Below, piece by piece: positions 23,501 through 63,550 of a stretch of DNA of 64,000 nt. Source of the DNA: Branchiostoma floridae (lineage: Eukaryota; Chordata; Leptocardii; Amphioxiformes; Branchiostomatidae); contig NC_049979.1 in NCBI RefSeq assembly GCF_000003815.2, forward strand, positions 21,904,518 to 21,968,517. Reading direction: 5' to 3'. Under the pieces are notes generated by a model, which was given only the letters and a program-made list of their open reading frames with translations, made no database searches and was not told the DNA's origin. Position 1 is the first letter of the stretch; each line of letters begins with the position of its first letter. A program made the translations under genes and the position numbers.

Positions 23501-24623
23501 CTGTGCCTTTACACAAGACTTATGTGCTCGTTTTCCTGGCCTCCTTCTAGCGCAAACTGCAAACCAGGCTTCCCCTGAAAGCGCAAACCCTCCCCAGTGG
23601 ATTCATGTATGACGATGAATGGAACAACTGGGTATATGTGGTCACATTTCGTTGTTAAACTACAGGGTGCAGAAGTAAACAGTGCTGTTTTCTTTCCAAC
23701 ACCTTTGTTTAGCCACTGTCATACATTTAAGACCTTACCACAACTTTGTTCCCAACCAAAAAGTAGCCTGAAAGTGAATAATGATCCTAATCCAGTTCTA
23801 GTTTGCTCCTTAACTCTTCAAAATTTATAGTCAGCTGGCAGAGACGACTTAAAAAAAAAACAGCCAACCAGCAACCAACCACAGACGACCTTCCTCCTTG
23901 ACTAAATCGCAACCATGGTCTGGAGAAGGTCAGGTGTTCGTGGTCGGCTATGTGTGATAAGGTCTTTACAATGGAGGCAGCCTTGAAGAAAGGCAGCACT
24001 GTTTAGTTAACAGTACCACAATGAGTTGCTCCTTTATTATTTCTTTATTTCTGTGCTTTGTTCTCTCTCTCCTGTTGCTATCTGTCCCTTCTTCTTTCTG
24101 ACGTTTGGCCTAGACAGGGACCATTCCCGTATTGTCACCACACACTTGTTTTACTTTTAAAAAACACTTTGCTTTCCAGTCCCGGCCCATGACGCGGTAC
24201 CTCCCGCAGACGAGCAAAGATTTCGACCTTCGCACGCACATCGAATCCGGCGGGCACAGCCTGGACCTCTGCCCACACATCGCCATCACCAAAACCAGCT
24301 GCCGGGGATTCCTGGTCAAGATGGGCGGGAGGATCAAGACGTGGCGCAAGAGATGGTTCGTCTTCGACCGCACTTCTCAGACCTTCATGTACTACCCCGA
24401 CAGACACGAGAGAAGGGCCAAGGGGGGCATGAGCTTCAAGACAATTCAAGACGTGTACATCGATCACCTGTGTCCCTTCAAAAGCCCCAACCGTACGCTG
24501 ACGTTCTGTCTGAAGACGACGCACCGAGTGTACTACCTTGTGGCGCCCTCCGCAGAAGCGATGAGAATATGGATCGATGTGATAGTAACTGGTGCTGAGG
24601 GCTACCTCACTTTTACTAAGTGA
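1208..24623 (+). CDS. PHLDB: PHLDB/LL5-type pleckstrin-homology-like domain family B protein (5' end outside window)
   Basis: Fifteen plus-strand exons join in a consistent frame (about 1,180 codons): 1208-2541, 4849-4974, 5397-5534, 8912-9036, 10133-10277, 14045-14155, 16480-16605, 17424-17528, 19588-19774, 20198-20342, 20605-20683, 21040-21339, 22602-about 22700, 23551-23631, 24180-24623. Borders are AG..GT and phases agree throughout. The first exon starts in phase 1, so upstream exons (the family's N-terminal FHA region) lie outside the window. Order: Ser/Pro-rich region, coiled coil, Ser/Pro linker, C-terminal PH domain ending at TGA. The PH domain and its end ([10 protein letters not shown]) match what I know of vertebrate PHLDB1/2. 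Known family role: PIP3-binding cortical platform that recruits CLASP and ELKS and organises microtubule capture. Weak points are the start of 10133-10277 (purine-rich acceptor beside an N gap) and the donor of 22602. The PHLDB1/2/3 paralogue cannot be resolved; a single pre-duplication orthologue is expected in a lancelet. Confidence 0.88.
3568..3990. mobile_element. Degenerate hAT-like MITE related to the copy at 22,780
   Basis: Ends TAGTGCTACC and its inverse GTGTACAGCACTA. The interior shares CACTCAAATATAT and GACTACAGATTACTTTGTCA with the 22,780-23,172 element. It contains a 27-bp unit repeated about 2.3 times (3603-3664). Flanking 8-mers do not match, so it is old or its ends are misplaced. 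Confidence 0.45.
4445..4508. repeat. Palindromic repeat
   Basis: 18-base arms CTGGTAGAATCACTGATT and AATCAGTGATTCTACTGG pair at 16 of 18 positions across a 28-base loop. The arms resemble those of the foldback at 21,627-21,818. Confidence 0.6.
5011..5188. mobile_element. Foldback MITE, family A (copy 1)
   Basis: About 175-bp element with inverted ends; core GATGCATTGTGGGTAATATG and CTGTTTACAAGTTAGGGGCC are shared with copies at 20,362-20,528 and 53,061-53,222. It begins 37 bases after a PHLDB splice donor. Confidence 0.65.
5564..5668. repeat. Short tandem-like repeat, family B (copy 1)
   Basis: About three degenerate copies of a 30-bp unit containing GGCCAATGATAGCATGGCAG. The reverse complement recurs at 26,690, 61,665 and 62,855, and the same strand at 42,488. 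Confidence 0.6.
6395..6515. mobile_element. Remnant of a hAT element end
   Basis: Shares GGATGGGGT, AGCAAATTTC and TCCCAGGAC in order with 60,659-60,770, and ends CTGGCTAGAGACAGCTTTG, similar to CAGGGC-type hAT termini. Degraded. Confidence 0.4.
7421..7612. mobile_element. Mariner-like MITE (TA target)
   Basis: A 192-bp element bounded by TA: TACTGTAAATCTTAGAATGT at the left and GAATTTACAGTA at the right. The inner sequence contains GTTTGCGGTGGTTTTATTTT and CTAACCGCAAACAT. Intact TA-CTGTAAAT ends fit a Tc1/mariner-type duplication. Degenerate relatives are visible at about 6,898-7,090, 45,525-45,690, 55,240-55,455, 61,072-61,290 and 63,175-63,330. Confidence 0.65.
9064..9340 (-). mobile_element. 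5S-rRNA-derived SINE (SINE3-type)
   Basis: Read on the minus strand, 9340-9221 is exactly 120 bases and follows 5S rRNA from GTATGGCCGCGTGGCAC through TCTCCGAAGTTAAGCAAC and CTTGGATGGGAG to GCTGTAGAC, with many substitutions. A body with AGGGACGTAAAACGGGGGTC and CTCGAGGAGGCGCCTCGA follows, then an A/T-rich ATTATT-type tail. 5S-headed SINEs are an established class (SINE3); the body also resembles that of tRNA-derived SINEs here (35,840-35,930 and 57,950-58,030). Not a functional 5S gene because it is diverged and single. Confidence 0.75.
9445..9585. repeat. Dispersed repeat, family C (copy 1)
   Basis: Shares the order ACTTGGCAGTGAC, TTCCACTCTA, GAACACCTCAATCATTGG and TTGATAAC with 38,180-38,300. 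Confidence 0.45.
9962..10061. other. Assembly gap (100 N)
   Basis: Run of 100 N immediately upstream of the PHLDB exon at 10133; the round length suggests a gap of unknown size. Confidence 0.99.
10302..10746. mobile_element. hAT-type MITE with exact 8-bp target duplication
   Basis: 445 bp. The left end TAGGGCTGGGTACCG pairs with the right end CGGTACCCACCCCTA. Both flanks are TACAGTAC (10294-10301 and 10747-10754). The interior has repeated GGACCTGGACC/GGACCGG motifs. It sits 24 bases after a PHLDB donor. An 8-bp duplication is diagnostic of hAT. Confidence 0.85.
10755..14044. other. Long PHLDB intron segment without recognised features
   Basis: AT-rich intron between the hAT element and the exon at 14045. 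I see no exon, RNA gene or clear repeat boundary in it. Confidence 0.5.
14265..14466. mobile_element. Mariner-like MITE (TA target), second copy
   Basis: 202 bp bounded by TACTGTAAAGCTTGGAATGT and GAATTTTACAGTA. The centre contains TACTGTACTACAGAATTGTT, shared with the other family members. Confidence 0.62.
14572..14671. other. Assembly gap (100 N)
   Basis: Run of 100 N inside the PHLDB intron after exon 14045-14155. Confidence 0.99.
15249..15266. repeat. Poly-C tract
   Basis: C-run interrupted only near its start and followed by TCC and poly-A; a likely sequencing or slippage-prone site. Confidence 0.8.
18500..18527. repeat. (AC)n microsatellite
   Basis: About fourteen AC units in a PHLDB intron. 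Confidence 0.95.
19337..19530. mobile_element. Foldback element
   Basis: About 194 bp with roughly 50-base imperfect inverted arms: AAAGAGACCCTTTCTACACA.. at the left, and AAAGAGACTCTTTTTACATA.. when the right end is read in reverse. It lies 57 bases upstream of the PHLDB exon at 19588. Confidence 0.65.
20362..20528. mobile_element. Foldback MITE, family A (copy 2)
   Basis: Core GCGATGTATTGTGGGCAATA and GAACTGTTTACTAGAAAGGG correspond to copies 1 and 3. It begins about 20 bases after the donor of PHLDB exon 20198-20342. Confidence 0.6.
20770..20950 (+). mobile_element. tRNA-derived SINE (truncated)
   Basis: Carries a box-B-like GGGTTTGAACCCC after a box-A-like GGTGGTTCTTG, then CTAGCAGGC and TTGTGCCCTTGG, shared with the copies at 27,273 and 54,808. 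Confidence 0.6.
21627..21818. mobile_element. Foldback MITE
   Basis: 192 bp. AGGGTAGAGAT..GATCTGGCAGAATTCATGAT at the left pairs with ATCATGAATTCTGCCAGAT..ATCTCTACCCT at the right (about 36-base arms). No clear target duplication. Confidence 0.7.
22780..23172. mobile_element. hAT-type MITE with exact 8-bp target duplication
   Basis: 393 bp. Left end TAGTGTTGCGTAC, right end GTATGCAACACTA, both flanks GTATCTAC (22772-22779 and 23173-23180). The interior is shared with 3,568-3,990 and, more weakly, with 62,225-62,505. It sits in a PHLDB intron. Confidence 0.85.
23828..23968. mobile_element. MITE family D, partial copy
   Basis: Contains CAACCACAGACGACCTTC, CAACCATGGTCTGGAGAAGG and the end GGCTATGTGTGATAAGG, matching the right half of the 47,219-47,539 copy. 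Confidence 0.55.
24180..24623 (+). CDS. PHLDB: Terminal PHLDB exon with PH domain
   Basis: The exon starts after a TTTCCAG acceptor in phase 0 and ends at the TGA at 24621-24623. A short linker precedes a complete PH domain (about 24297-24600). It begins [20 protein letters not shown], whose basic K/R residues in the first strand-loop are the usual phosphoinositide-binding site. It ends with the invariant PH helix Trp ([18 protein letters not shown]). This is the most strongly conserved stretch of the gene and the basis of the family call. Confidence 0.93.

Positions 24624-63550: not shown

Follow-up and report, generated by a model that had tools for sequence, protein, structure and literature searches.

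Three predicted NCAM-like receptor genes between PHLDB and SORL1 in a probable unduplicated lancelet counterpart of human 11q22-24

Human members of the nectin, CADM and JAM families lie near PHLDB1, PHLDB2 and PHLDB3, and a group of receptor genes placed between a PHLDB gene and SORL1 in a lancelet raises the question of whether such a locus preserves the nectin region as it was before the vertebrate duplications. This had been raised as a possibility in an earlier note on the stretch of DNA analysed here (the window, 64 kb, within which all positions are given). The window belongs to chromosome C1 (35.3 of 513.4 Mb). The gene order found is PHLDB (+), three receptor genes named R1, R2 and R3 (all -), SORL1 (-), UBASH3 and a SIK3-like kinase (Table 1).

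Table 1. Positions of the predicted genes and their parts within the window
Feature	Position	Strand	Remarks
PHLDB-type gene, 3' part	1208..24623	+	FHA exon lies before window; coiled-coil-like exons in the middle of the gene
PHLDB long Ser/Pro-rich exon	1208-2541	+	
PHLDB PH domain match	24114-24620	+	PF00169, 67.6 bits
PHLDB last exon, PH domain	24180-24623	+	
R1, 276 aa	27012..31786	-	predicted from leader, splice sites, fn3 match
R1 tail exon	27194-27012	-	
R1 Thr-rich stalk and TM exon	28042-27768	-	
R1 FN3 exons	29562-29380 and 28819-28688	-	
R1 leader exon	31786-31729	-	
R2, 293 aa	35474..39534	-	predicted from leader, splice sites, domain matches
R2 TM and tail exon	35712-35474	-	
R2 FN3 exons	37182-37012 and 36396-36277	-	
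R2 Ig exons	37935-37786 and 37586-37446	-	
R2 leader exon	39534-39474	-	
R3, 330 (or 318) aa	41079..46760	-	predicted from leader, splice sites, domain matches
R3 stalk, TM and tail exon	41398-41079	-	
R3 Ig2 exons	42725-42588 and 42064-41924	-	
R3 Ig1 exons	45497-45367 and 44849-44654 (or to 44690)	-	
R3 leader exon	46760-46694	-	
SORL1, 3' part	53391..64000	-	LDLa repeats, FN3 domains, TM, cytoplasmic tail; continues rightward beyond window

The flanking genes and their linkage

Domain matches and gene models confirm that a PHLDB-type gene and SORL1 lie on either side of three predicted surface-receptor genes, as the earlier note had claimed. PHLDB proteins have an FHA domain near the start and a PH domain at the end, and both are present here, the FHA domain about 4.7 kb ahead of the window (PF00498, 25.7 bits, cut-off 20.7). 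The name PHLDB rests on these two domains, on the Ser/Pro-rich, coiled-coil-like middle between them and on likeness to the LL5 sequence. No PHLDB-specific profile model was matched, and NCBIfam gave nothing useful for either PHLDB or R2. The simple gene finder returned several models for the PHLDB exons, which we infer to belong together.

On the other side, the SORL1 part combines the SORL1-specific domain fn3_SORL1 (PF25814, 65.6 bits, cut-off 27), five fn3 stretches (112.4 bits), an array of LDLa repeats, a transmembrane segment and a tail that contains SFATSHY, comparable to the retromer motif FANSHY (PMC12860930), and ends in [21 protein letters not shown]. Its exons were read by eye out to about +81.8 kb, the VPS10p part included; a short piece of the SORL1 part beyond the window gave no VPS10 match in Pfam.

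Past SORL1, UBASH3 (matching a UBASH3B chain at 3.4e-68) and the SIK3-like kinase (3.5e-57) are neighbours outside the window that map to the human regions named in the earlier note. The human counterparts of neighbours and markers lie at 11q22-24 and its relatives at 3q13, 19q13 and 21q, with CBL, CBLB and CBLC at 11q23, 3q13 and 19q13. All three further markers (CBL, APP and ZW10), a small, hand-picked set without a negative control, are found on C1, and CBL has one match in the lancelet genome. The lancelet chromosome resembles the vertebrate 11q22-24/3q13/19q13/21q paralogon in uniting relatives of PHLDB, SORL1, UBASH3, SIK, CBL, APP and ZW10, and differs from it in showing a single unduplicated copy per marker and an order only partly the same as the human one. 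Such macrosynteny is already well known; the linkage part of the reading, in which the window retains an unduplicated counterpart of human 11q22-24 and its ohnologous regions, gains support.

In published accounts, DRD2 adjoins ANKK1/TTC12/ZW10 and its duplicate DRD2l adjoins XRCC1/ETHE1/PHLDB3 (PMC5900934), with PHLDB3 also described near XRCC1 and ETHE1 (PMC6337849). A literature search returned no paper joining PHLDB1 and SORL1 as paralogue synteny, none combining 11q23/3q13/19q13 paralogy with the immunoglobulin superfamily and nectin, and none combining NCAM1, PHLDB1, SORL1, NECTIN1 and 11q23; judged by title, the papers listed for amphioxus, the paralogon, nectin and 11q23 did not concern the R1-R3 locus.

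Three receptor models on one strand

The description of the genes as three Ig/FN3 receptors holds for their number and in part for their domains. Each is a complete predicted single-pass receptor that has a leader exon, a stalk and a transmembrane exon to itself, with Ig domains confined to R3 (two) and R2 (one) and FN3 domains to R2 (one) and R1 (one, no Ig domain being found in R1). Pfam scores were 61.2 bits for Ig_3 in R3, 51.5 bits for fn3 and 23.8 bits for ig in R2, and 28.1 bits for fn3 in R1 (cut-off 25). Each model has one weak splice site: a donor in R3 (-2.1), an acceptor in R2 (-0.4) and a donor in R1 (-0.8). A run of N occupies 30740-31065, inside the first intron of R1.

The split into three genes, whose models are predicted from DNA, rests on leader exons and stops. 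The minus strand of 26-54 kb has three ATG exons that combine a hydrophobic leader with a good donor, one preceding each receptor and all of phase 1, and the plus strand of the same interval had no leader-type ATG exon; three phase-1 leader exons occurred in none of 100 dinucleotide shuffles (mean 0.24). Joined together, the exons of each set give an open protein of the length stated in Table 1, each with its own stop codon and with AATAAA 0.4, 1.0 and 1.5 kb downstream. Between paralogous domains, differences at codon positions 1/2/3 numbered 27/32/51 and 46/37/68, position 3 being the highest. Apart from the models and SORL1, tblastn with the models and NCAM pieces revealed no Ig or FN3 exons in the window at E < 0.1, the gene finder predicted no genes in five gaps tried on both strands, and neither a tRNA scan nor Rfam gave any match.

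The simple gene finder, run on the whole region, fused R3, R2 and R1 into one model. This would suit a single complex NCAM-like locus that has more than one promoter and alternative 3' ends, joinable into an Ig-Ig-Ig-FN3-FN3-TM protein, as would the common strand, the order Ig1-Ig2 / Ig-FN3 / FN3 and the boundary exons, which are all of phase 1, so that read-through splicing would stay in frame. Such a locus is improbable in view of the separate leader exon, stop codon and downstream AATAAA of every set, and the mutual likeness of the domains described below fits duplication better than it fits successive domains of one protein.

Affinity to NCAM

Among named adhesion families, NCAM appears to be the best match of the receptors. 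The top four PDB matches of R3 are NCAM2, NCAM2, NCAM2 and NCAM1, all to Ig1-Ig2 (NCAM2 Ig1-Ig2 at 5e-24). In a domain-by-domain comparison restricted to NCAM1, NCAM2, DCC and the lancelet domains, R3 Ig1 is closest to NCAM2 Ig1 (z 16.0) and R3 Ig2 to NCAM2 Ig2 (z 28.7), the R1 and R2 FN3 domains are closest to each other (z 31.2 and 27.0) and next to NCAM2 FN3-1, not FN3-2, and the R2 Ig domain is closest to R3 Ig2 (z 17.2), with NCAM2 Ig3 (z 12.2) ahead of Ig2 (z 6.2). The end of R3 Ig2 (SDFQDIVFNV) also recalls that of NCAM2 Ig2 (IDFRDIIVIV). The likeness to NCAM1 and NCAM2 lies in the Ig1-Ig2 of R3 and the FN3 of R1 and R2, which match NCAM Ig1-Ig2 and FN3-1; together with Drosophila Fasciclin 2, presumably of the same group, these would be the closest known system.

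NCAM itself is built from five Ig domains and two FN3 domains, and none of the three receptors has this layout. Only R3 carries NCAM-type Ig1-Ig2 in order, and the lancelet proteins, which have one or two extracellular domains against seven in NCAM, come from three tandem genes and have tails that are very short or free of tyrosine. R2 seems nearly as near to contactin-2 as to NCAM, aligning with it through Ig and FN3 in one continuous stretch (52.6 bits; best NCAM2 stretch 45.4 bits). Contactins are longer and GPI-anchored, whereas R2 is transmembrane with one Ig and one FN3 domain. In the searches with R2 and R1, titin ranks above NCAM2 because the scores of its many FN3 domains add up. When the genome was searched with NCAM2 Ig1-Ig2, the 26 matches had their best member on C3 and none listed at the R1-R3 locus, and a canonical lancelet NCAM was not located among them.

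The nectin label was not borne out. Nectin and CADM proteins begin with a V-set domain, continue with C2-set_2 domains and finish in a PDZ-binding C-terminus; what the lancelet genes share with them and with JAM is that they encode Ig-domain adhesion receptors. A nectin, CADM, JAM or CD200 identity was rejected, since Pfam found no C2-set_2 match in the receptors up to E = 1 and no such chain is among the best 60 of 188 (R3), 143 (R2) and 111 (R1) matches. Moreover, two of the three receptors have FN3, and the C-termini (EDGGM, AERSA and AFSAA) are not PDZ ends of nectin or CADM type. The wider proposal of a nectin/CADM lineage in a pre-duplication nectin region can draw on the nectins near PHLDB1-3 in human and on a V-set match in R3 barely above the cut-off (26.6 bits against 26), though in the second domain; against the evidence just given, it is very improbable. 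By their sequences, the proteins would rather be small NCAM-like type I membrane receptors.

Origin of the array

R2 shares intron positions with both of its neighbours: its Ig domain and R3 Ig2 have an identical intron column and phase, and its FN3 and that of R1 have an intron at a matching place within a two-residue gap. The three receptors therefore look like old tandem duplicates with different domain losses. The ancestor would most likely have been one Ig-Ig-FN3-stalk-TM gene, from which tandem duplication would have produced three genes, R3 keeping Ig1-Ig2, R2 an Ig2-like domain and FN3, and R1 FN3 only; the domain-boundary introns are of phase 1, so that such losses could occur without breaking the frame. 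Fission of an NCAM gene, to which the seemingly colinear order R3-R2-R1 might point, was rejected, as the R2 Ig is closest to R3 Ig2 and the FN3 domains to each other, which fits duplication and domain loss better. None of the three tails contains a tyrosine, and the receptors would probably act in cell-surface adhesion or recognition, with no signalling via tyrosines of their own. We consider it probable that the window is an unduplicated 11q22-24-type neighbourhood holding a tandem array of three NCAM-like receptors that arose by duplication and then domain loss.

Whether the place of the array is itself ancestral is a separate matter. A local lancelet expansion of the immunoglobulin superfamily, lying between truly syntenic flanks by coincidence and bearing no information on how the Ig genes of vertebrate 11q23 arose, is a serious contender, if somewhat short of an even chance. 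Ig/FN3 genes are common, fn3 alone giving at least 150 scored matches in the lancelet genome; another chromosome, C8, carries a relative of R3 with two Ig domains in a single exon; and Ig genes are abundant at human 11q23-24, so that some Ig gene is to be expected near any syntenic marker. Speaking against it, R3 matches NCAM Ig1 to Ig1 and Ig2 to Ig2, not just any Ig, a genome search with R3 found nothing above 63 bits except its own exons, and NCAM1 lies at 11q22-q23 in the NCAM1-TTC12-ANKK1-DRD2 (NTAD) cluster (PMC7177674). Another account lists NCAM1 with genes that hagfish and lamprey eliminate (PMC10972751). That the array and the human NCAM1 locus share an ancestral position, genes of the NCAM family having stood between PHLDB and SORL1 in the chordate ancestor and lancelets having split the NCAM modules among three mini-receptors, is a tentative and rather doubtful proposal.

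The locus offers a single-copy reference for a neighbourhood that vertebrates carry several times (11q, 3q, 19q and 21q). The receptor question shifts from nectins to NCAM, and the paralogon accommodates both NCAM1 on 11q and NCAM2 on 21q. Should other lancelets and outgroups have the array at this position too, it would become possible to date when the NCAM1 linkage arose, and receptors of one and two domains would be a natural test of what NCAM modules do alone.

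Flanking genes and their chromosomal linkage

The window lies at C1:21904518-21968517 in an assembly of 513,431,437 bases and 431 contigs, in which C1 (like C3, C8 and C19, a chromosome) is 35.3 Mb long. As an earlier note had proposed, a PHLDB-type gene and SORL1 flank three receptor genes, here called R3, R2 and R1, with the 3' parts of both flanking genes and the three receptor models found in the window. The PHLDB-type exons come from a simple gene finder, which split the gene into several models; coiled-coil-like exons lie between the Ser/Pro-rich exon and the last exon, and an FHA exon lies 4.7 kb ahead of the window start. 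The tail of lancelet SORL1 carries SFATSHY at the place of human FANSHY, described in an excerpt of PMC12860930 as the retromer motif of human SORL1.

Features of the window and its right flank, in window-based coordinates
Feature	Position	Strand	Evidence
PHLDB-type gene, within window	first 24.6 kb	+	PH domain, 67.6 bits, in last exon
PHLDB-type gene, Ser/Pro-rich long exon	1208-2541	+	simple gene finder
R1	27012-31786; leader start 31.79 kb	-	276 aa, FN3 only; Pfam fn3 28.1 bits, above cut-off
R2	35474-39534; leader start 39.53 kb	-	293 aa, Ig + FN3; Pfam fn3 51.5, ig 23.8 bits, above cut-offs
R3	41079-46760; leader start 46.76 kb	-	330 aa, two Ig; Pfam Ig_3 61.2 bits, above cut-off
Tandem repeats	48301-48364 and 48410-48459		21-base unit x3, 11-base unit x4.5
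SORL1	from right edge, end at 53391	-	fn3_SORL1 65.6 bits, cut-off 27
Reverse-transcriptase-like frame	+93905 to +94222, past window		DFSKTFDTVPHERLL...
UBASH3	101.7-109.7 kb	+	best chain UBASH3B 3.4e-68; UBASH3A also matched
SIK-type kinase	125.8-130.7 kb, plus another kinase exon at about 145.3 kb	-	SIK3 3.5e-57

A flank of 100 kb was examined on either side. To the right, SORL1-like exons extend by eye to ~82 kb, with no VPS10 match in Pfam for a short piece of the VPS10p region; UBASH3 and a SIK-type kinase follow, the next family for the latter being MARK4 (1.7e-41). The reverse-transcriptase-like frame between SORL1 and UBASH3 is a retroelement remnant. The left flank up to the FHA exon yielded no convincing gene by coding score. 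In genome-wide searches, APP_N (17.1 Mb), Cbl_N (16.7 Mb) and Zw10_N (31.3 Mb) were each found on C1 only, and the sole background for an enrichment of these 3/3 markers is the 6.9% of the assembly that C1 represents.

In human, PHLDB1, CBL, SIK3 and ZW10 lie at 11q23, SORL1, UBASH3B and APLP2 at 11q24, CBLB and PHLDB2 at 3q13, CBLC and PHLDB3 at 19q13, and APP, UBASH3A and SIK1 at 21q. The neighbours past SORL1 have counterparts at 11q23, 11q24 and 21q, and together with the three C1 markers they strengthen the earlier note's claim, which holds up, of a linkage predating the vertebrate genome duplications. It is an instance of the already well-known lancelet-vertebrate macrosynteny. Excerpted sources describe NCAM1, TTC12, ANKK1 and DRD2 as a vertebrate-conserved cluster that spans 521 kb at 11q22-q23 (PMC7177674), and place DRD2 beside ANKK1/TTC12 and ZW10, and its duplicate DRD2l beside XRCC1/ETHE1/PHLDB3 (PMC5900934). 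These two settings link the NCAM1 and PHLDB3 sides of the paralogon.

Receptor gene models

Three exons that open with ATG, encode a hydrophobic leader and end in a good donor, all of phase 1, were found on the - strand at 26-54 kb; the same search found none on the + strand, and three phase-1 leader exons occurred in 0/100 dinucleotide shuffles. Behind each come domain exons, a stalk/transmembrane (TM) exon and a stop. A few splice sites score poorly, namely an R3 donor (-2.1), an R1 donor (-0.8) and an R2 acceptor (-0.4). The third exon of R3, the second of Ig1, has 44690 and 44654 as possible ends; in its longer form it gains a short Ser-rich linker and extends as far as an 11-base CGATCGTACGA repeat at 44622-44646; the stretch at this alternative end spans 44612-44653. 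A 326-base run of N sits inside the first intron of R1, which leaves a small chance that an Ig exon of R1 is hidden there. Both tandem repeats, which lie between R3 and SORL1 where genes are sparse, contain TGCCGCAA-like words.

Resemblance and probable kinship of the receptors

Each receptor was searched against all PDB chains. Among the best 60 of 188 matches, R3 ranked NCAM2 Ig1-Ig2 (2wim, 5e-24; 2v5t; 2xy2) and NCAM1 (1qz1) on top, followed by DCC, Robo2 and contactin-2. The best 60 of 143 for R2 began with two titin chains, NCAM2 (1.4e-17), two further titin chains and contactin-2 (4.1e-13, a single continuous stretch), and the best 60 of 111 for R1 with two titin chains and NCAM2 FN3-1 (6.4e-10). 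No nectin, CADM, JAM or CD200 chain appeared in these three sets. The nectin label of the earlier note does not hold up among these listed matches, and what the receptors resemble is better called NCAM.

In a domain-by-domain comparison restricted to NCAM1, NCAM2, DCC and lancelet domains, R3 Ig1 was closest to NCAM2 Ig1 (similarity score z 16.0) and R3 Ig2 to NCAM2 Ig2 (z 28.7). R2 Ig was closest to R3 Ig2 (17.2), then to NCAM2 Ig3 (12.2), above NCAM2 Ig2 (6.2); the FN3 domains of R1 and R2 were mutually closest, followed by NCAM2 FN3-1, not FN3-2. Two-sequence profiles gave a similar picture, with NCAM2 first behind titin for FN3, and on top for Ig with contactin-2 just below.

R2 Ig and R3 Ig2 share an internal intron in identical column and phase, the FN3 domains of R2 and R1 have one at a common place within a two-residue gap, and differences between the paralogous domains are concentrated at third codon positions. 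From these introns, third-position differences and domain matches, the receptors look like old tandem relatives that carry differing sets of domains and resemble NCAM in sequence, though not in layout. The kinship of R1 with R3 depends on R2, because the two have no domain in common. A looser relative of R3 (27% identity, 62.9 bits) lies on another chromosome (L014:1324-2490, C8:23125872 region); this intronless receptor, a frame of 388 aa in one exon, has a pair of NCAM-Ig1/Ig2-like Ig domains along with a TM segment and a long tail containing tyrosines. Dense single-exon FN3 arrays, roughly one per 0.5-1 kb, at C8:14250362-14284961 and C19:6734232-6756181 probably encode long proteins built of FN3 repeats.

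Possible ancestral position and predicted function

Because NCAM1 itself lies at 11q22-q23, an ancestral NCAM position at the locus is an attractive possibility. When the genome was searched with NCAM2 Ig1-Ig2, no canonical lancelet NCAM emerged among the 26 matches, of which the best is on C3; the receptor locus is absent from the list, probably because its split exons individually score too low. A serious rival is that the receptors arose when an NCAM-like gene expanded locally.

According to an excerpt of PMC2644493, NCAM dimerises in cis through Ig1 and Ig2, and its FN3 modules make contact with FGFR. The tails of the three predicted proteins contain no tyrosine, so the receptors themselves are unlikely to signal in an ITIM/ITAM manner. 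By analogy with NCAM, R3 may serve in adhesion or cis-pairing, and R2 and R1 may modulate such contacts.
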